Shown piece by piece: positions 45,836-57,338 of a stretch of DNA of 64,000 bases. Source of the stretch: Novosphingobium sp. Chol11 (GTDB lineage: Bacteria > Pseudomonadota > Alphaproteobacteria > Sphingomonadales > Sphingomonadaceae); contig NZ_CAMBTS010000004.1 of the NCBI RefSeq assembly GCF_945870625.1, positions 1-64,000 on the forward strand, given 5' to 3'. The position numbers were made by a program, and so were the translations under genes. The notes below the pieces were generated by a model that made no database searches, was not told the DNA's origin, and was given only the letters and a program-made list of their open reading frames with translations. How positions within the stretch are numbered: position 1 is the stretch's first letter; every line of letters begins with the position of its first letter.

Positions 45836-47014
45836 TTAGCCCTTGCTCCACCCCGGCGGCGGCGCTTTGTGCAGCCGCGCCTCGGGCGTGATCGCGCGGA
45901 TCTTGCGCGCGAAGCTGCGCAGGCAGACCTCGCTCTGGCCAATCGGCCCCGCGCCATAGGTTTGCGAGGCCATGCCTTGCTGCACCCGCTCGATCAGCCA
46001 GGTATCCTCCTTGTTGACCACCCTGTTGATCCGCCAGTTGGCATAGCGCACCAGCTTCATTTCGCGGCTCGCATCGGGCAAGGCGAAGGCCATTTCGCGA
46101 AGCACGCAAGTCGTCGGCCCGGTCGGCAGCCACTGCATGAAATCGATCTGATCGGCATAGATATCAAAAGCGATATTGGGCCACAGTTTGTAATAGAGCC
46201 AGCGCCGCTGGCCTTCGAGCGGCAGATGCGGCGCAGGCGGCAGGTGCGCCTGATAAAACCGCTCCCAGAACAGCGCAGAAGGCTTGTCGACCAGATCGCC
46301 CTTCATCCGGTCGACCCATTCCTGCGCCTCGATCTCGTAGGACTTGGCGAAAATCCGCACCAGCCCGTCGTGGACCACTGGAATGTGGAGGTTGTCGGAA
46401 TAGTTGTCGCCGACATTCTTCCAGTTCACGCTGCGCGGGCGCAGCCGCACATCGCTGATCCGGCGCATCTCGGCAAACCGGTAAGGCGCGACTTCGGCTT
46501 CATAGGGGGCCATCATCTCCGCCACCGAAGGAAAGCCCGCATCGGTCAGCCGCACGAACACGAAGCCGTGCCAAATCTCCAGCGCCACTGGCACCAGCCC
46601 GTTTTCCTCCAGCTTCAGCGCTGGATAATCCGCCTTCATCGGCACCCCGGTCAGCCGGCCATCGGTTTCATAGGCCCAGGCATGATAGGGGCACACCAGC
46701 TTCTTCGCGCAGCCTGCCGGGCCTTCGACCAGCCGCATCGCGCGGTGGCGGCAGACATTGGCGAAGGCGCGGATGACGCCGTCCTCGCCGCGCACCGCGA
46801 TCACGCTTTCGCCGATATAGTCGAGCGTGCGGTAATCGCCGGGCTGCGCCAGATCGCTTTCGTGGCAGACGATCTGCCACGACGGGCGGATCACGCGCTC
46901 CATCTCGCGCGCATGGTTTTCGGGATCGGTGTAGAGCCAGCCGGGCAGGCTCCAGTCCGCGTCGGGATCGTGCTCACTCTCAGCCAGCGCCGGAAACGCG
47001 GATTGATCACCCAT
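45836..47014 (-). CDS. Rieske aromatic-ring-hydroxylating oxygenase, alpha subunit
   Basis: This 392-residue Rieske non-haem iron oxygenase has [2Fe-2S] ligands Cys88/His90 (CRHRA) and Cys108/His111 (CPYHAW). The mononuclear iron His residues are in NVGDNYSDNLHIPVVH. The catalytic domain begins WKNVGDNY, as in SRPBCC oxygenases of quaternary-amine or aromatic substrates. ATG 47014 (MGDQSAF) is used because the longer start at 47077 would run through the operator palindrome. It is divergent from a BetI-like regulator, which hints at a betaine/choline-like substrate, but that is inference. Confidence 0.88.
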   Translation of the reverse strand: MGDQSAFPALAESEHDPDADWSLPGWLYTDPENHAREMERVIRPSWQIVCHESDLAQPGDYRTLDYIGESVIAVRGEDGVIRAFANVCRHRAMRLVEGPAGCAKKLVCPYHAWAYETDGRLTGVPMKADYPALKLEENGLVPVALEIWHGFVFVRLTDAGFPSVAEMMAPYEAEVAPYRFAEMRRISDVRLRPRSVNWKNVGDNYSDNLHIPVVHDGLVRIFAKSYEIEAQEWVDRMKGDLVDKPSALFWERFYQAHLPPAPHLPLEGQRRWLYYKLWPNIAFDIYADQIDFMQWLPTGPTTCVLREMAFALPDASREMKLVRYANWRINRVVNKEDTWLIERVQQGMASQTYGAGPIGQSEVCLRSFARKIRAITPEARLHKAPPPGWSKG

Positions 47015-47044
47015 ATCTGCCGAATCCCTGCGCACGAAATTGCC

Positions 47045-47064
47045 TGTTGGACGATCGTACAACA
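47045..47064. promoter_or_regulatory. Operator palindrome for TetR regulator
   Basis: TGTTGGACGATCGTACAACA is a 20-bp inverted repeat (18 of 20 bases symmetric) centred in the 68-base gap between the divergent Rieske oxygenase and TetR genes. It lies 31 bases from the oxygenase start and 19 from the regulator start, a good position for a TetR operator that represses both. Confidence 0.7.
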
Positions 47065-47082
47065 ACGCGTATCCCATGCAAG

Positions 47083-47685
47083 ATGAAATCGCCCGCCTTC
47101 TCCCGCGCCGAGCCTGACGCCCGCCGCCTCAGCCTGATCGAGGCCTGCGCACGGGTGCTTGCCGCCGCCGGTTCCGCCGGTGCGAGTGTGCGCGCGATTG
47201 CGCTGGAGGCGGGAGTTTCGCCTGGCCTTGTCGGGCATTACTTCGGCGGGATCGACGCGCTGGTGGCGGCGACGTATGCCCATGTCGATGCGCAAGTGTC
47301 AGACGCGCTCGATGCCGCAGTCGCGGCGGCTGGCGCCGCCCCCCGCGCGCGGCTCGAAGCCTTCGTCACCGCCAGCTTTGACGCGCCGATTGCCGATCGC
47401 GCGCTGCTGGCGACATGGATCGCGTTCTGGAGCCTGATTACCGCGCGCGCCGATCTCGCGCGCCAGCACGATGCGCAATATGCCGGCTATCGCGCCCGCC
47501 TCGAACGCCTGCTGGCCGGATGCGGCGTACCAGAGCCCGATCTGCGCCGGGCCGCGATTGCGGTTACCGCGCTGGTCGATGGGCTTTGGCTGGAGCTGTG
47601 CCTATCGCCTGGGTGCTTCAGCGCGGAGGAAGCGGGCGGGATTGCGCGCCGCTTCCTCGATGCGCTCATTTCGCCAGATCGGTGA
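47083..47685 (+). CDS. BetI-like TetR-family repressor
   Basis: This 200-residue TetR-family regulator has an N-terminal HTH (LIEACARVLAAAGSAGASVRAIALEAGVSPGLVGHYFGG) that resembles BetI, the repressor of choline/glycine-betaine genes. The C-terminal ligand-binding helices end in ALVDGLWLELCLSPG, also BetI-like. ATG 47083 is chosen because earlier starts fall in the operator. Its 3' end overlaps the convergent M20 peptidase gene by 20 bases. The effector may be choline, betaine or another quaternary amine. Confidence 0.85.
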   Translation: MKSPAFSRAEPDARRLSLIEACARVLAAAGSAGASVRAIALEAGVSPGLVGHYFGGIDALVAATYAHVDAQVSDALDAAVAAAGAAPRARLEAFVTASFDAPIADRALLATWIAFWSLITARADLARQHDAQYAGYRARLERLLAGCGVPEPDLRRAAIAVTALVDGLWLELCLSPGCFSAEEAGGIARRFLDALISPDR

Positions 47686-50025: not shown

Positions 50026-51021
50026 TCACCCATGCGGCAGGATCACCGTGCGCCCCACCACGCGGCGTTCGCGCATCGCAAGATAGGCTTCGCGCCAGTC
50101 GTCCAGCCCGACTTGCGCGCTTACATGCGGGCGGATCTTGCCTTCTACCGCCAGCGCGAGGATCGCGGCGACGTTCTCTGCCCCGCGCTCCGGGAAGCGC
50201 CGCCCATATTCGCCCGCGCGCACGCCGACCACGGCGAAACCCTTGATCAGCGGGATGTTGGCGCGCACCTGCGGGATGCGGCCGCTGGCAAAGCCGACCA
50301 CCAGCAGGCGGCCGCCAAACGCGGTGTAGCGGCAGCCCTCATCGAACACATCGCCGCCGACCGGATCATAGACCAGTTCCGCCCCGCGCCCGCCGGTGAG
50401 CGCCAGCACTTCCTCGCGGATTCCAGTCGGCCCCGCGAGAAGGTGATCGGGCGCATAAAGCCGCGCAATCTCGGCGCGCTTCTCCGCGCTCGATGCCACC
50501 GCAATCACGGCAAGGCCCAGCGCGCGGCCCAGATCGACCGCCGCAAGGCCCACGCCGCCCGCCGCGCCGTGCACCACCAGCGTCTCGCCCGCCTCGGCGC
50601 GGCCCAGCCGCACCAGCGCGACCCACGCGGTGAGATAGGCGGCGCGCAAGGCCGCCCCTTCGGCAAAGCTCAAGCGATCCGGCAGCGCCATGATCGCCGC
50701 ATCGGCAAACACGCCGTACTGCGCCGCGCAGCCGATCCCGCCGACGATCACCCGGTCGCCGGCTTGCCACTGGCTGCCTGGCCCCGCGCGCGCGACCACC
50801 CCTGCCCCTTCCATGCCCGGCACGAACGGCAGTGGCGGTTTGGCCTGATAGAGCCCCTCGGTCATGAGCAAGTCAGGAAAACCCAGCGCCGCTGCCTCGA
50901 TCCGCACCAGCGCCGCGCCCGGCCCGGGCTCCGGCACCGCGCGCGTCCCCAGCGCTACCCCCGCCAGATCGGGCGCGAGCGCTGAAACTTCGAGGACGCG
51001 CATTGTCGATTCTGCAGCCAT
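50026..51021 (-). CDS. Quinone oxidoreductase / zinc-free alcohol dehydrogenase-like
   Basis: This 331-residue MDR-superfamily oxidoreductase is of the NADPH:quinone oxidoreductase type. It lacks the zinc-ligand cysteines of alcohol dehydrogenases. The cofactor motif appears in LVVHGAAGGVGLAAVDLGRALG. It ends in VVGRTVILPHG. ATG 51021 gives MAAESTMRVLEV; ATG 51003 is an alternative. The open frame continues upstream into the palindromic repeat at 51048-51188, giving a spurious N-terminal extension. It is next to the amine-oxidase operon but has its own start region. Confidence 0.85.
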   Translation of the reverse strand: MAAESTMRVLEVSALAPDLAGVALGTRAVPEPGPGAALVRIEAAALGFPDLLMTEGLYQAKPPLPFVPGMEGAGVVARAGPGSQWQAGDRVIVGGIGCAAQYGVFADAAIMALPDRLSFAEGAALRAAYLTAWVALVRLGRAEAGETLVVHGAAGGVGLAAVDLGRALGLAVIAVASSAEKRAEIARLYAPDHLLAGPTGIREEVLALTGGRGAELVYDPVGGDVFDEGCRYTAFGGRLLVVGFASGRIPQVRANIPLIKGFAVVGVRAGEYGRRFPERGAENVAAILALAVEGKIRPHVSAQVGLDDWREAYLAMRERRVVGRTVILPHG

Positions 51022-51047
51022 GTCAGTCACCCGCTCAGTCCAGCCGT

Positions 51048-51188
51048 CGTCACCCTGAACTTGTTTCAGGGTCCATCTCTCAGCGCGCGCCGGAGCTTGC
51101 AATGAAAAGATGATGCTGCCGCGGGGTGCCTTTCCGGCGAGCACCGCATATGCAGATGGATGGACCCTGAAACGCGTTCTGGGTGACG
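51048..51188. repeat. 141-bp palindromic repeat, second copy of cysS family
   Basis: The left end 51048-51076 is identical over all 29 bases to the left end of the repeat inside cysS. The right end 51160-51188 is its diverged inverse (ATGGACCCTGAAACG to GGGTGACG). It lies in the spacer between the quinone oxidoreductase and amine oxidase genes. Confidence 0.85.
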
Positions 51189-51225
51189 AAGATACTTTTT
51201 GCCGCAAGCGCGCCCTGCCCCCGGC

Positions 51226-52815
51226 TCACCCCGCCAATGCGCGCTGGTGCAGCCTGGTGATGGCGTCGAGCGAGGAGAGCAGCGCGCCTTCCTGCCAGCA
51301 GCCGTAATACGAGCAATGCTCGCCCGCGAGCACGATGCGCCCGTCCATCGACACCAGATTCTGATAATGCGCGGCGCGCGATTCCTCGGTCCAGGTGGCG
51401 CAGCATCCCAGAATCCACGGCATACGGCTCCACGCCAGCGACGCGCCATTGCTGAACTCCGCCTTGTAGTGCGCCGGATGGAACACCGCGCCCTGATCCA
51501 GCGCGGCCTGGATGCGCCTTTCGGGGGTCATCCCCGCCAGCACATACGCGCCCACCCCGAACGGATAAGCGCCGAGAAGAACTGCCGGACCATCGCTGAA
51601 GCAACCGTGACCCGGATAGCTGACCAGCCCGATCGCCTGATCGGTGAACGAGCTCCCGCCATAGATCGCATCCTCGGTTTCCCAGAAGCGGCGCTTCATC
51701 TCCAGCCCGATCTTCACCGAATTTCCATAGGGCAACGCTTTGAGCGCCGCTTTCTTGGTATCGGCGATTTGCACGTCGATCTGGCCCAGAATGCTGGCAG
51801 GAATGGTGCAGACCATCCAATCGGCCTTGGTCTCGCCGGCCGCGCCGGTGATGGCGTCGGTCCAGCTGGCGGTCACCCCCTTTTCGTCCTGCGCGATCTT
51901 GGTGATGCGCGTGTTGAAGCGGATCGTCTTGCCCACGCGCGCCTGAAATGCCTTGCCGATCCGGTCCATCCCGCCCTTGGCCTGGAACATCGAGGTTTGC
52001 ATCGCATGCTCGGCAAAGAAGCCAAGCTGATCCCAGATCTTGCTGTCGAGCGTTTCGGAAAGGCCGAAGGGATCATTGGGGATCGGCGCGCCGTTCACCC
52101 CGCCGCCCGGCGGCCGCTCCCAGCCGCGCTGCTCGCCCACTTTCTCGCTTTTCCCATAGGTCATGTTCTTGTCGAGCACGCCCCAACTGCGCATCGCCTC
52201 AAGCAACCTGGCCTTGTCCTCCGGCGTGACCGCAGCATCGAGCGCGCCGGCATTGAGCGCCTTGCCCAGCAGCTCGGAGACGTGGCCTTTGAAGTCAATC
52301 GTCAGGTCGCGGTAGCGCTGCGGCTTGCCGCCAAATGCGGTCTTGCGGTGGATGAAGGCGTTGTGGTTGCTCTGCATGAACGGTTCGAGCGCAACGCCCA
52401 GTTCCTTGCAGTAATGCAGCACGGTGCGGTGGTGATAGGGAATGCGCCAGGGGCCGGGATTAAGATAATTGCCCGGCGCGAAGCCCACTTTCTGCACCGA
52501 GCCCAGTTCGTTCACCGTATCGCCGCCGCGCAGCGTCATGTTGCGCCCGCCCGCGCGTCCCTGCAGCTCCAGAATCTGGACCTTGTAGCCCGCCTTGGTC
52601 AGTTCATAGGCCGCGAGCATCCCGGCAAGGCCCGCGCCGATCACCAGCACCGATGCGCCGGGCCGCGCGCCGGTGAGCTGCGGCGGGCCGGTGAAATGCG
52701 ATTCGGCCGCATGGCCCAGCACCGTCATCGTCTGATAAAGCGCCGCACCGCCGCCGACTTTGCCGATCACCCTGAGCAGATCGCGCCGCGTTGGCGCAGT
52801 GAAGTGATCGAGCAT
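51226..52815 (-). CDS. Tat-exported flavin monoamine oxidase
   Basis: This 529-residue FAD amine oxidase has a twin-arginine signal (TRRDLLRVIG, Arg10-Arg11, then a hydrophobic stretch), so it is folded before export to the periplasm. The FAD-binding VLVIGAGLAGMLAAYEL has its Gly triad at 60-65, and the C-terminal GRIVLAGEHCSYYGCWQEGALLSSLDAI completes the FAD site. It oxidises primary or secondary amines to imines with electron transfer. ATG 52815 follows AGGAGG. A cytochrome c gene lies 69 bases upstream on the same strand, a possible electron acceptor in place of oxygen. Confidence 0.9.
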   Translation of the reverse strand: MLDHFTAPTRRDLLRVIGKVGGGAALYQTMTVLGHAAESHFTGPPQLTGARPGASVLVIGAGLAGMLAAYELTKAGYKVQILELQGRAGGRNMTLRGGDTVNELGSVQKVGFAPGNYLNPGPWRIPYHHRTVLHYCKELGVALEPFMQSNHNAFIHRKTAFGGKPQRYRDLTIDFKGHVSELLGKALNAGALDAAVTPEDKARLLEAMRSWGVLDKNMTYGKSEKVGEQRGWERPPGGGVNGAPIPNDPFGLSETLDSKIWDQLGFFAEHAMQTSMFQAKGGMDRIGKAFQARVGKTIRFNTRITKIAQDEKGVTASWTDAITGAAGETKADWMVCTIPASILGQIDVQIADTKKAALKALPYGNSVKIGLEMKRRFWETEDAIYGGSSFTDQAIGLVSYPGHGCFSDGPAVLLGAYPFGVGAYVLAGMTPERRIQAALDQGAVFHPAHYKAEFSNGASLAWSRMPWILGCCATWTEESRAAHYQNLVSMDGRIVLAGEHCSYYGCWQEGALLSSLDAITRLHQRALAG

Positions 52816-52884
52816 GAAACCTCCTGTGGCGGCGGGGGCGGCAGGAACGCCGAACCCCAAATGAATTTGGCAAAACGCGGCGGA

Positions 52885-53340
52885 TCAGTGGCCGCAATTG
52901 CAATCGGGCACCGGCGGATTGGCAGTCGTGATCCGATCGAGATCGGCCACCGTCACCGTATCTTGATACTTGTTGAAATGGCCGCGCACGTAATTGAGCA
53001 CAGCGGCGATCTGCGGGCGGGTCAGCATGCCGGCAAACCACGGCATGCCGCCGCGTCCTTTGAGCAGGATGATGCTGCCATAGTCCTTGTCCGCCAGCCG
53101 GGGATTGTCTGCCAGCGCGGGGAACATCGCGCCGGGCACGCCGCAGCCCTTGGCATCGGCCATGTGGCACGATTGGCAGATCTGCTCATAAATCTCGCGG
53201 CCTTCGGCCGAAACCTCGACCGCGGATTCGCCATTGCTGGGCCGGTCCTGCGCGAAGCCGGGCGATGCCTGAGCGAGCGCGACGGCGAGAGAAAGGGTGC
53301 CCGAGAGCAACGCCGCTGCTCGATACCTGAGCAAGATCAT
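52885..53340 (-). CDS. Exported c-type cytochrome
   Basis: This 151-residue class I cytochrome c has a signal peptide (YRAAALLSGTLSLAVALAQASPGFAQ). The haem motif CQSCH is at residues 55-59 and the axial Met99 in GGMPWFAG. It ends in an unusual cysteine-rich PDCNCGH. It should carry one-electron equivalents in the periplasm. It precedes the Tat-exported amine oxidase by 69 bases, so they are probably one transcript. ATG 53340 is used; there is no strong ribosome-binding site. Confidence 0.9.
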   Translation of the reverse strand: MILLRYRAAALLSGTLSLAVALAQASPGFAQDRPSNGESAVEVSAEGREIYEQICQSCHMADAKGCGVPGAMFPALADNPRLADKDYGSIILLKGRGGMPWFAGMLTRPQIAAVLNYVRGHFNKYQDTVTVADLDRITTANPPVPDCNCGH

Positions 53341-53620
53341 ATGCCAGCTTTCATGCACAAAATGAATGATTGGCTCGTGTTATGGTGTCGCACCATGTGC
53401 GCAAAGCAGTTTGTTGTCCCGATAACTGCGCCTTTCGGGCAAGCACAGTGATGCCAGTTCACCTGATGCATTGCTCAAACCTGCCCCAGCATGCTGCTAC
53501 ACGCTTCAAGCGAGCGCTTTTGCCCATGCGCTGTTTCGCGTATGACCCATGCATGGCCATGACCTAAGGGTGGGTGATGTCCCGCTAATACCAACCGCTC
53601 CTGCAAAAAAGGAACCACCG
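53341..53620. promoter_or_regulatory. Divergent control region of amine-oxidation genes
   Basis: The 280-base gap between the divergent cytochrome c and ridA genes contains two palindromes, ATGGTG-TCG-CACCAT (53382-53396) and CCATGCATGG (53547-53556). Either could be an operator. No confident -35/-10 pairs were found. No small gene here looks genuine. Confidence 0.4.
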
Positions 53621-54121
53621 ATGCGCTTCACGCTTCTGTCCGCCGCGGCCCTCATCGCGCTTGCCCCTCTGGCCACCGCGCAGGCGCAAGTGACGCGCAT
53701 TCAGAGCAATCCCAAGGGGTTGATCCTTGATGGCGCAGACGTTCAGGCGGGCACCGATATCTTCTATCTCTCGGGCCAATTGGCCTCGCCGGTCGATCCC
53801 ACCAAGACTTTTGACCAGGTCAAATCGATCGAGGATCTGGGCGACACCAAGACCCAGACGATCAGCACGTTCAATCAGATCAAGAAAATCCTCGAAGCGC
53901 GCGGCTATGCGATGTCGGACATCATCAAGCTGACGCAGTTTGTCGTGGCCGATCCAAAGCTGGGCAAGATGGATTTTGCCGGCGTCAACGAAGGCTTCAA
54001 GCAGTTTTTCAAGACCGCTGAAAACCCCAATACCGTGGCGCGTTCGACCGTTCAGGTCGCAGCGCTCGCCGGTCCTTACTTCCTCATCGAGATCGAGGCG
54101 ATCGCCGCCAAGAAGCGTTGA
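53621..54121 (+). CDS. Exported RidA family protein
   Basis: This 166-residue RidA/YjgF-family protein normally hydrolyses reactive enamines or imines to keto compounds. Here it carries a clear signal peptide (MRFTLLSAAALIALAPLATAQAQ), so it works in the periplasm, which is unusual. The catalytic carboxylate-binding Arg141 (VARSTVQVAAL) and the Glu in IEIEAIA are intact; the usual Cys near that Arg is Thr. ATG 53621 has AAAGGA upstream. It is divergent from the amine oxidase and cytochrome c genes and 5 bases before a cytochrome b561. Confidence 0.9.
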   Translation: MRFTLLSAAALIALAPLATAQAQVTRIQSNPKGLILDGADVQAGTDIFYLSGQLASPVDPTKTFDQVKSIEDLGDTKTQTISTFNQIKKILEARGYAMSDIIKLTQFVVADPKLGKMDFAGVNEGFKQFFKTAENPNTVARSTVQVAALAGPYFLIEIEAIAAKKR

Positions 54122-54126
54122 TCGGC

Positions 54127-54657
54127 ATGGCCAGCATTCCGGGGCCCGTGCGCTACAACCAGACCGCGCGGGCGCTGCACTGGATCATCGCCGCGCTTGT
54201 CCTCCTCAATCTCGTCACCGGACTGCTGGGCGAGACGCTGGAAGAACTCCAGATCCCGGCGCCCTCGCATCTGGCGACCGGCATTCTCATCCTGCTGCTC
54301 TCGCTGGTCCGGCTGGGCTGGCGGCTGACTTGGCGCGCGCCTCCCCACGCTGCGGATGTCAGCCCGCTGCTGCGCAAGGTGGCGCGCGTTACGCACTTGT
54401 CCTTCTATGCGCTGATGCTCGTCATGCCGATCACCGGCTGGATTTTCGTATCGGCGAGCAAGTATCCGATCTCGATGTACGGCCTGTTCCTGTGGCCCAA
54501 GCTGCCGTTGACCAAGGCCATGCCGATTGTCGGCGCGGCGACGGAAGCCCATGAAATTCTCGGCTATGGCTTTGCCGCGCTGGCAGCCTTGCACATCGGC
54601 GCGGCTCTTTATTACCACTTTGCCTTGAAGGATCAGACGCTGCGGCGCATGCTGTAA
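54127..54657 (+). CDS. Cytochrome b561
   Basis: This 176-residue integral membrane cytochrome of the b561 type has four hydrophobic helices and His residues for two haems (HWIIAAL, SHLATG, THLSFYAL, HEILGYG and ALHIGAALYYHF). It moves electrons between the membrane quinone pool and periplasmic partners. The start ATG 54127 lies 5 bases after ridA, so they are one operon. This makes it a candidate electron link for the amine-oxidation locus. Confidence 0.9.
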   Translation: MASIPGPVRYNQTARALHWIIAALVLLNLVTGLLGETLEELQIPAPSHLATGILILLLSLVRLGWRLTWRAPPHAADVSPLLRKVARVTHLSFYALMLVMPITGWIFVSASKYPISMYGLFLWPKLPLTKAMPIVGAATEAHEILGYGFAALAALHIGAALYYHFALKDQTLRRML

Positions 54658-54660
54658 ATA

Positions 54661-54702
54661 CGCACAGCAGCGCCGCATTCGTATTCAAATCGCTGCGGTG
54701 CG
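54661..54702 (+). terminator. Terminator candidate after cytochrome b561
   Basis: CGCACAGCAGCG and CGCTGCGGTGCG pair over 12 bp with one mismatch around an 18-base loop, followed by CGTTTTC. It starts three bases after the stop codon of the cytochrome b561 gene. Confidence 0.6.
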
Positions 54703-54840
54703 CGTTTTCACCGGTAATACTTGCGCATACAGACGAATAACGCGCACACTGCAGCTGAACGGGAGTGAGCGGGGATGCAGGCAAAGACGTGCGCGGATCG
54801 GGACAGGATGACGACGAAAAGCTGGTCTGACGGCCGCATC

Positions 54841-54858
54841 TGCCGGGATGCCCCGGCA
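54841..54858 (+). promoter_or_regulatory. Leader hairpin before glgP
   Basis: TGCCGGG and CCCGGCA form a perfect 7-bp stem around ATGC, 38 bases upstream of the glgP start. It may belong to the glg mRNA leader, but no regulatory family is recognised. Confidence 0.35.
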
Positions 54859-54896
54859 CTCCGGCGTGTGCGGGCGCATCACAGGGAGCCTCTACG

Positions 54897-57338
54897 TTGA
54901 ACATCGAAGTCCCCCGCGCGCCTGCCCCGTCGGCAGGCTGGCCCGCCATCGACGCCCACATTATCGACGTGCTGCGCCACCGCGTCGGCAAGGATGAACG
55001 CGCCGCCAAGCCGCACGATTGGTTCACCGCCACCGTGCTCACCTTGCGCGATGCGGTGATCGATCGCTGGATGGAATCGACCCGCCGCACCTACGATGAA
55101 GGCGCCAAGCGGGTCTATTATCTCAGCCTCGAATTCCTGATCGGGCGGCTGCTGCGCGATGCCTTGTCGAATATGGGCATGACCCGCGAGATGGAGCAGG
55201 CGCTGCGCGATTATGGCTTCGATCTCGCCGAGATCGAGGAGCTTGAGCCCGATGCCGCGCTCGGCAATGGCGGCCTCGGACGGCTGGCGGCGTGCTTCAT
55301 GGAAAGCCTCGCCAGCCTCGATATCCCGGCCTACGGCTATGGCATCCGCTATGTAAACGGCATGTTCCGCCAGCGGCTCGACGATGGCTGGCAAGTCGAA
55401 CTCCCGGAAACCTGGCTCAGCCACGGCAATCCATGGGAATTTGATCGCCGCGAGAGCGCCTACCGCATCGGCTTTGGCGGAGAGGTAATCGATCAGGGCG
55501 AAGGCGTGCAGTGGCATCCGGCCGAACAGATCGAGGCGCATGCGATCGATACGCCCGTCGTCGGCTGGCGCGGCAAGCGGGTGAACACGCTGCGGCTATG
55601 GACCGCCAGCGCGCTCGATCCGATCCGGCTCGATGCCTTCAACGCGGGCGACCACATCGGCGCGCTGGCCGGTCAGACCCGCGCGGACAGCCTGGTGCGC
55701 GTGCTCTATCCTGCGGATTCGACTGCGGCGGGGCAGGAATTGCGCCTGCGGCAGGAGTTTTTCTTCACCTCCGCCTCGCTGCAAGACATCGTGCGCCGCC
55801 ATGTGCAGGAATTCGGCGATATCCGCACCTTGCCCGAAAAAGCCGCGATCCAGCTTAATGACACCCACCCGGCGGTGGCGGTGGCCGAATTGATGCGGCT
55901 GCTGGTCGATGTGCACGGCCTTGAATTCAGCGAGGCATGGGAGCTGACCAAGCGCACCATCGGCTACACCAACCACACGCTGCTGCCCGAGGCGCTGGAG
56001 AGCTGGCCGCTGCCGCTGTTCGAGCGGCTGCTGCCGCGCCACATGCAGATCGTCTATGCGATCAACAGCCGCGTGCTGCGCGAGGCGCGCAAGGCCGGGC
56101 TTGAGCCGCACGCGATTTCGGCGATCAGCCTGATCGACGAAGGCGGCGAGCGGCGCGTGCGCATGGCCAATCTGGCCTTCGCCGGCGCGCACAGCGTCAA
56201 TGGCGTGGCCGCGCTCCACACTGAGCTGATGAAGTCCACGGTGTTTGCCGATCTTCATGCGCTCTACCCTGAGCGGATCAACAACAAGACCAACGGCGTC
56301 ACCCCGCGCCGCTGGCTGCAGCAATGCAATCCGGGTCTTGTCGCGGTGCTCAAGGACGCTATCGGCGACGGCTTTCTGGATGAGACCGAGAAGCTTGCCG
56401 ACCTCAATGCGCTGGCGGACGACGCCGCGCTGGGCGAGCGGATCGCCGAGGTCAAGCGCTCGAACAAGGTGGCGCTGGCCGGGCACATCAAAACGCTCAC
56501 CGGATTGCGGCTCGATCCCGATGCGCTGTTCGATGTGCAGATCAAGCGCATCCACGAGTACAAGCGCCAACTGCTCAACCTAATTGAGACAGTGGCGCTC
56601 TATGACCAGATCCGCAGCCATCCCGAGCGCGACTGGGTGCCGCGCGTCAAGATTTTCGGCGGCAAGGCGGCATCAAGCTATCACAACGCCAAGCTGATCA
56701 TCAAACTGGCGAGCGACATCGCGCGGCGGGTCAATTCCGATCCTTCGGTCGGCGGCCTGCTCAAAGTGGTGTTCGTGCCCAATTACAACGTGACGCTGGC
56801 CGAGCGGATCATCCCGGCTGCCGACCTTTCCGAGCAGATCAGCACGGCGGGGATGGAGGCTTCGGGCACCGGCAACATGAAGTTCGCATTGAACGGCGCG
56901 CTCACCATCGGCACGCTGGATGGCGCCAATATCGAGATCAAGGACCGTGTCGGCGACGACAATATCGTGATCTTCGGGCTGACCGCCGATGAAGTCGCGG
57001 AAAAGCGCGGCAACGGCTACAATCCGCGCGAAGTGATCGAGGGCAGCCGCGAATTGCAGCAGGCGATTGCCGCGATCGCCACCGGCGTTTTCTCGCCCGA
57101 TGATCCAAAGCGCTACGCCGATCTGATGGGCGGGATCTACGATCACGACTGGTTTATGGTCGCCGCCGATTTTGATGCCTATCACGCCGCGCAGCGCGGC
57201 ATCGACCGGCGCTGGGAAAACCCCGCCGCCTGGCGCGCCGCCGCGATCCGCAACATCGCCAATGTCAGCTGGTTTTCCTCTGATCGCACGATCCGCGAAT
57301 ATGCCCGCGACATCTGGGGAGTCACACCCGGCTCATGA
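54897..57338 (+). CDS. glgP: Glycogen phosphorylase
   Basis: This 813-residue glycogen/maltodextrin phosphorylase releases glucose-1-phosphate from alpha-1,4-glucans using pyridoxal phosphate. The PLP-lysine region and substrate loops are clear (KRIHEYKRQLLN, then SGTGNMKFALNGALTIGTLDGANIE), as is YYLSLEFLIGRLL. The length is standard. The start is TTG 54897, with AGGGAG 8 bases upstream and no better ATG. It leads the glg operon and is followed by glgB 10 bases later. Confidence 0.95.
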   Translation: MNIEVPRAPAPSAGWPAIDAHIIDVLRHRVGKDERAAKPHDWFTATVLTLRDAVIDRWMESTRRTYDEGAKRVYYLSLEFLIGRLLRDALSNMGMTREMEQALRDYGFDLAEIEELEPDAALGNGGLGRLAACFMESLASLDIPAYGYGIRYVNGMFRQRLDDGWQVELPETWLSHGNPWEFDRRESAYRIGFGGEVIDQGEGVQWHPAEQIEAHAIDTPVVGWRGKRVNTLRLWTASALDPIRLDAFNAGDHIGALAGQTRADSLVRVLYPADSTAAGQELRLRQEFFFTSASLQDIVRRHVQEFGDIRTLPEKAAIQLNDTHPAVAVAELMRLLVDVHGLEFSEAWELTKRTIGYTNHTLLPEALESWPLPLFERLLPRHMQIVYAINSRVLREARKAGLEPHAISAISLIDEGGERRVRMANLAFAGAHSVNGVAALHTELMKSTVFADLHALYPERINNKTNGVTPRRWLQQCNPGLVAVLKDAIGDGFLDETEKLADLNALADDAALGERIAEVKRSNKVALAGHIKTLTGLRLDPDALFDVQIKRIHEYKRQLLNLIETVALYDQIRSHPERDWVPRVKIFGGKAASSYHNAKLIIKLASDIARRVNSDPSVGGLLKVVFVPNYNVTLAERIIPAADLSEQISTAGMEASGTGNMKFALNGALTIGTLDGANIEIKDRVGDDNIVIFGLTADEVAEKRGNGYNPREVIEGSRELQQAIAAIATGVFSPDDPKRYADLMGGIYDHDWFMVAADFDAYHAAQRGIDRRWENPAAWRAAAIRNIANVSWFSSDRTIREYARDIWGVTPGS

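Follow-up and report, generated by a model that had tools for sequence, protein, structure and literature searches.

Predicted periplasmic cytochrome-c-linked L-amino-acid dehydrogenase and an exported Rid partner in a divergent locus of Novosphingobium sp. Chol11

Bacterial gene clusters that bring together an L-amino-acid oxidase (LAAO), a cytochrome c and a Rid protein have been described before. The lao-cccA-ridA cluster of Gluconacetobacter diazotrophicus PAL5 (GDI2456, GDI2455 and GDI2454) was published in 2016, its authors suggesting a periplasmic LAAO assisted by the cytochrome and RidA (PMC5053998; statements taken from this and the other papers cited here refer to the available excerpts of their text). 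Cytochrome-c-using flavin amine dehydrogenases, comprising NicA2, Pnao and their relatives, have been shown biochemically (PMC9396064, PMC12224317), and a twin-arginine translocation (Tat) signal together with an adjacent CytC gene predicts cytochrome use (PMC12224317). On the side of imine chemistry, PFL_1385 and PSPTO_3006 are Rid3 proteins that deaminate imines made by L-amino-acid oxidase (PMC5619798), and RidA and Rid3 genes cluster with genes for amine oxidases dependent on flavin adenine dinucleotide (FAD; PMC4433059). Here we analyse a locus of Novosphingobium sp. Chol11 with genes for a Tat-signalled flavoenzyme, a cytochrome c, a Rid protein and a cytochrome b561. It lies in the window, that is, the whole 64,000-nucleotide stretch of DNA under study, which is part of contig C4 in a 3.23 Mb draft genome. 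A preliminary description of this DNA had taken the combination to be undescribed; the cluster published in 2016 (PMC5053998) and the cytochrome-using relatives reported later contradict this.

We interpret the locus, with moderate confidence, as encoding a periplasmic L-amino-acid dehydrogenase linked to cytochrome c, with hydrolysis of the imine on site. Its gene identities, predicted export signals, conserved active-site residues and conserved linkage are evident from sequence comparison; that the cytochrome is used and the imine hydrolysed is inferred from characterised relatives. The Tat-exported flavoenzyme would oxidize an L-amino acid, or a close α-amino acid, to the imino acid outside the inner membrane; the neighbouring cytochrome c would re-oxidize the FADH2 and then pass the electrons to the respiratory chain; and the exported Rid would hydrolyse the imino acid to a 2-oxo acid and ammonium, which would protect periplasmic proteins and draw the reaction forward. 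Oxidation at FAD outside the inner membrane is proposed because of family membership, electron transfer to cytochrome c because a Tat signal and an adjacent cytochrome gene mark cytochrome-using dehydrogenases (PMC12224317), and hydrolysis by Rid because of its conserved residues and the published work on Rid proteins (PMC5619798, PMC4433059). The exported amine-oxidation module of the preliminary description is thereby retained in part: comparison supports oxidation outside the membrane, a linked exported Rid and, as the likely electron acceptor, cytochrome c, but not general amines as substrates.

The flavoenzyme gene starts at an ATG at 52815 behind a good ribosome site (AGGAGG), and its product carries the Tat motif TRRDLL at residues 9–14 and matches the Pfam family Amino_oxidase (E = 1.3e-48). 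Among solved structures the closest is 2jae, the L-amino-acid oxidase of Rhodococcus opacus (E = 2.8e-82; 175 of 466 aligned residues identical), and an AlphaFold2 model (mean predicted local distance difference test, pLDDT, 87.9) has 2jae and 2jb1 as its best matches, with template-modelling (TM) scores of 0.93–0.94 on the target length and a root-mean-square deviation of 2.0. What had been called a Tat-signalled FAD amine oxidase thus keeps its Tat signal, and its identity as a general amine oxidase gives way to the LAAO type, 2jae being the best match in both sequence and fold. Arg124, an arginine in 138 of 138 aligned rows, aligns with the arginine of R. opacus LAAO that we take to bind the substrate carboxylate; because this LAAO homologue keeps it, the comparison points to α-amino acids rather than general amines as substrates. 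Trp507 is kept in 137 of the 138 rows, and position 417 is Tyr, as in the window, in 90 and Phe in 44 (these alignments contain some oxidase genes twice). Cys472 and Cys506 align with a Trp and an Ala of R. opacus LAAO and occur together in 64 of the 138 rows, never singly, a co-variation that suggests a predicted disulfide near the pocket or active site.

The oxidase has its closest named relatives in Novosphingobium, at up to 86% identity, and in a sample of the genus 41 of 119 genomes have it at E = 1e-40; a family survey at E = 0.001 (122 of 149 genomes with a match) included many short FAD-motif matches and was not used as a count. For neighbourhood counts, 147 alignment rows were reduced to 136 oxidase genes and, after 11 short-flank genes were dropped, to 125 flanked by 900 bases or more on each side, the window's own oxidase not being among them. 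These divide into the window's clade of 103 genes (at least 340 bits, about 40–86% identical) and a second group of 22. A loose Tat-like pattern is present in 102 of the 103 oxidases of the window's clade. Tandem oxidase copies lie close together on one strand in L044, L045, L047, L098 and L136. A residue comparison between oxidases with and without a cytochrome was confounded by kinship and was not used.

The cytochrome c gene begins at the ATG at 53340 or at a TTG two codons inside. Its product has a hydrophobic N terminus, CQSCH at residues 55–59 and a Met99 conserved in all 104 aligned relatives, in agreement with the secreted cytochrome described earlier. A same-strand cytochrome c adjoins the oxidase in 101 of the 103 genes of the window's clade, the remaining two being first copies of tandem pairs. 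In 3 of the 22 second-group genes a di-haem cytochrome c separates oxidase from Rid and occupies the position held elsewhere by the mono-haem cytochrome, as if one cytochrome had replaced the other. On a quick tree, rough and with long branches, the cytochrome label changes five times against a shuffled mean of 30.5, with di-haem cytochromes counted as none.

The rid gene starts at an ATG at 53621 behind AAGGAA, also a good ribosome site, and the protein begins MRFTLLSAAALIALAPLATAQA-QVTR, with the cleavage site placed by eye, ahead of a PF01042 domain (E = 1.4e-17; 64.2 bits, cut-off 27.3); the signal peptide ascribed to it previously is thus upheld as a prediction. It scores below the TIGR00004 cut-off (53.8 versus 106.25). 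By sequence and by model (mean pLDDT only 74.2), the closest solved relatives are PFL_1385 and PSPTO_3006 (9bkc, 9bka), both Rid3, at 38% identity. Every one of 75 Rids has Arg141, Ser51 and Glu159; Arg141 aligns with the conserved Arg of 9bkc, 9bka and 2dyy, and is presumably the equivalent of RidA Arg105. The genome has three PF01042 matches, of which this Rid alone is on the contig of the oxidase.

Export of Rid is predicted well beyond the window. We applied a home-made signal-peptide rule (charge, hydrophobic core and small residues; not SignalP) to 75 distinct LAAO-linked Rids from 195 loci, each of at least 70 bits and with an oxidase of at least 100 bits in its locus; the window's own Rid is included, and Rids below 70 bits, among them the truncated L180, are left out. 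The rule is satisfied by 68 of the 75. Judged by eye, five of the other seven have near-miss signals or an unclear start and two (L177 and L178) have no signal; four Rids (L163, L169, L172 and L173) instead carry, again by eye, a lipoprotein-type signal. In L177 and L178 (G483 and G426), a Tat-signalled oxidase without a cytochrome stands beside the signal-less Rid. Across 20 aligned rows, the signal region varies in length and letters and the mature part is conserved. As controls we took 31 PF01042 loci of related genomes, namely L001, L003 and 29 further ones (only matches given a locus), of which 6 pass the rule; two of these (L221 and L226) are LAAO-linked and also among the 75, so the remainder is 4 of 29. 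The four others, L211, L229, L215 and L217, pass without an LAAO in their short loci, and exported Rids of other lineages seem, on sequence, to exist.

Co-occurrence across genomes, a check proposed at the outset, was tested for Rid and the oxidase in 398 genomes, an even sample of the phylum, with thresholds of E ≤ 1e-12 for relatives of this Rid and E ≤ 1e-40 for relatives of the oxidase. The Rid was found in 25 genomes, the oxidase in 27 and both in 24 (Fisher p = 3.7e-34, kinship not corrected for); the exceptions are G449, with a partial Rid match and no oxidase, and G221, G282 and G461, with an oxidase and no Rid. All 24 pairs are on one contig, with gaps of 96–151 bases in five, 450–806 in 17 and about 3.4–3.5 kb in two (largest, 3,501 bases), and the neighbourhood is conserved. 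A chance neighbourhood was rejected given this co-occurrence and the conserved adjacency of the cytochrome.

Several observations nevertheless weigh against the dehydrogenase interpretation or narrow it. Most loci were fetched by their oxidase, which makes the linkage partly a matter of construction, the 398-genome survey being the independent test. More than half of the window-clade oxidases (54 of 103), including Caulobacter and Phenylobacterium loci, have no Rid of at least 70 bits in the fetched stretch; Rid is therefore not an obligatory partner, and on comparative evidence the LAAO, the cytochrome c and the exported Rid are recurrent, frequent partners rather than a fixed three-part machine. 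The Pseudomonas-like Rids L177 and L178 plainly have no signal peptide and may be cytoplasmic or exported together with their partner. Cys472 stands in place of a Trp in the pocket region of R. opacus LAAO, and so the substrate range may differ. The cytochrome users of the NicA2/Pnao group were collected with NicA2 as query, and the window's enzyme is closest to LAAOs. Finally, 19 of the 22 second-clade oxidases have no neighbouring cytochrome, though 18 of the 22 have a Rid.

This last count also favours a true periplasmic oxidase that passes electrons to O2 and makes hydrogen peroxide, whether to scavenge nitrogen or to act on competitors, with some other function for the cytochrome. Oxidase is indeed the name given to the characterised homologues (R. 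opacus, snake venoms), and rapid reaction with O2 is reported for Tat enzymes that have no cytochrome nearby (PMC12224317); set against the cytochrome that adjoins nearly every gene of the window's own clade, we consider such an oxidase quite improbable. We give similarly little credence to the idea that Rid serves the oxidase as a subunit, structural or stabilising, and does not act as a free imine hydrolase: the periplasm of Chlamydomonas offers a precedent, with a catalytic LAAO subunit and a non-catalytic RidA subunit (cited in PMC5053998), and LAO1 is drawn there with LAO2/RIDA (PMC10805672), but the invariance of Arg141, Ser51 and Glu159 and the many window-clade oxidases with no linked Rid both speak for a free enzyme. 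The substrate could also be a specific α-amino compound, for instance one imported through TonB, or the locus could serve to turn tryptophan into auxin, in place of a free common L-amino acid. A TonB receptor, a LuxR-type regulator and a hybrid kinase occur in the locus of many relatives, and G. diazotrophicus requires its cluster to make auxin from tryptophan (PMC5053998). Against this, a TonB receptor is missing from the window's locus, and the genome offers only a homologue of 36% identity. Free amino acids are, moreover, the usual substrates of the LAAO family, and we regard a specialised substrate as unlikely, if worth keeping in mind.

The preliminary description had placed the b561, next to cytochrome c, in the electron path, and a version in which b561 carries the electrons to the quinone pool can point to the window itself, where the gene begins 5 bases past ridA on the same strand. 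The relatives make it very unlikely. Other than the window's own, the 195 loci show no b561 apart from one weak match (L093, 18 bits); in the six closest relatives (L077–L081 and L151), which share the oxidase, cytochrome and Rid with the window, b561 is absent and a phosphorylase follows ridA within about 250 bases, leaving no room for it. In L256–L259, b561 relatives (60–65% identical) lie 11 kb away beside a second TonB receptor, and none was seen in L260 and L261. We therefore rejected b561 as a conserved part of the module, given its near-absence from the 195 loci and its distance in L256–L259, and dropped it from the electron path; because its relatives adjoin the second TonB receptor and it is nearly absent from the other loci, it is more likely a remnant neighbour.

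The same Novosphingobium loci show a longer arrangement. In L256–L259 the order is oxidase, cytochrome, a sulfotransferase with tetratricopeptide repeats (TPR-sulfotransferase), TonB receptor, Rid on the opposite strand and LuxR-type regulator, and beyond the regulator follow a hybrid kinase, the second TonB receptor, b561 and the phosphorylase. Names for the six wider-locus genes come from Pfam matches of representatives only. In L258 the gene calls omit the cytochrome, which is seen in L086, apparently the same contig. The short locus of the window keeps oxidase, cytochrome and Rid and has no TonB receptor, sulfotransferase, kinase or regulator, and is best read as a loss, because the kinase, regulator and TonB receptor are also present in less closely related loci, for example L042, L045 and L093. 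Elsewhere in the genome a 76% identical regulator stands beside a 61% identical kinase. These kinase and regulator orthologues are at G000:C81:4334-7001, near a frame 34–40% identical to the TPR-sulfotransferase.

Open reading frame coordinates and Pfam matches confirm four genes in two units diverging from a 280-base gap, as first described (Table 1). In the minus-strand unit, cytochrome c is followed by the oxidase after 69 bases; in the plus-strand unit, rid is followed by b561. Aligned by eye, the control region has a palindrome at 53382–53396, in the stretch 53377–53404, flanked by −10-like and −35-like boxes that would belong to the cytochrome/oxidase unit, and six relatives have a palindrome at the same place with different letters; this palindrome upstream of the cytochrome gene is a possible operator. 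A σ70 consensus scan of the control region gave no match, which leaves the assignment of the boxes weak, and no Rfam match was found in 50900–54960. Farther off, the window encodes a Rieske ring-hydroxylating oxygenase alpha subunit (45836–47077, minus strand) and, divergent from it, a BetI-type TetR regulator (47047–47685, plus strand).

Table 1. Coordinates of the features of the locus in the window
Feature	Position	Strand	Size and basis
Tat-exported FAD L-amino-acid oxidase/dehydrogenase (predicted)	51226..52815	-	529 aa; Pfam, PDB and model comparisons
Sec-exported mono-haem cytochrome c (predicted)	52885..53340	-	151 aa; CQSCH, Met99
Divergent control region	53341..53620	.	280 bases; alignment read by eye
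Rid protein with N-terminal signal peptide (predicted)	53621..54121	+	166 aa; PF01042; Arg141, Ser51, Glu159
Cytochrome b561, neighbour, probably outside the module	54127..54657	+	PF01292, E = 5.6e-27

More broadly, we think it on balance probable that a dedicated lineage of periplasmic Rids, with Sec- or lipoprotein-type signals, frequently accompanies exported L-amino-acid dehydrogenases, which are often cytochrome-linked, across Pseudomonadota, and that many proteins of this group annotated as 'L-amino-acid oxidases' are respiratory dehydrogenases. If so, Rid chemistry in bacteria would not be only cytoplasmic, and the published gene cluster would become a testable unit in which imine hydrolysis moves outside together with the oxidase and respiration can conserve electrons that would otherwise end in peroxide. 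This would bear on how many genes for LAAO, cytochrome c and RidA-like proteins are named, in Novosphingobium and in other bacteria, and on bacterial auxin made from tryptophan.

Among known systems, the G. diazotrophicus lao-cccA-ridA cluster likewise links a Tat-signalled LAAO, compared there with R. opacus LAAO, to a cytochrome c and ridA (PMC5053998). By its published description it differs in being a single operon needed for tryptophan-derived auxin, whereas ridA is divergent in the window; the available text of PMC5053998 makes no mention of RidA export, and the window's Rid has a predicted signal. Our open-licence literature search turned up no paper devoted to export or a periplasmic location of a bacterial Rid, nor one on export of this cluster's Rid or how strictly it travels with the oxidase. 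With the NicA2/Pnao group the window shares a Tat signal, an adjacent Sec-signalled cytochrome c and membership of the flavin amine oxidoreductase superfamily; 'RidA' is absent from the text of PMC12224317 and no word beginning 'Rid' occurs in PMC9396064. R. opacus LAAO (2jae, 2jb1), compared by sequence and fold only, resembles the window's oxidase in fold and in the aligned Arg and Trp and differs at the pocket-region Trp replaced by Cys472; the window's enzyme has a neighbouring cytochrome. PFL_1385 and PSPTO_3006 share the aligned Arg with the window's Rid as its closest solved relatives, at only 38% identity, and neither 'signal' nor 'periplasm' occurs in PMC5619798. Chlamydomonas LAO1 with LAO2/RIDA also pairs a periplasmic L-amino-acid oxidase with a Rid partner, but in an alga, with peroxide as a product and, in the available text, no cytochrome gene named in its cluster (PMC10805672). 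The gene trio is thus already known, and what comparison adds is the predicted export of Rid and its linkage to the oxidase, not a new kind of system.

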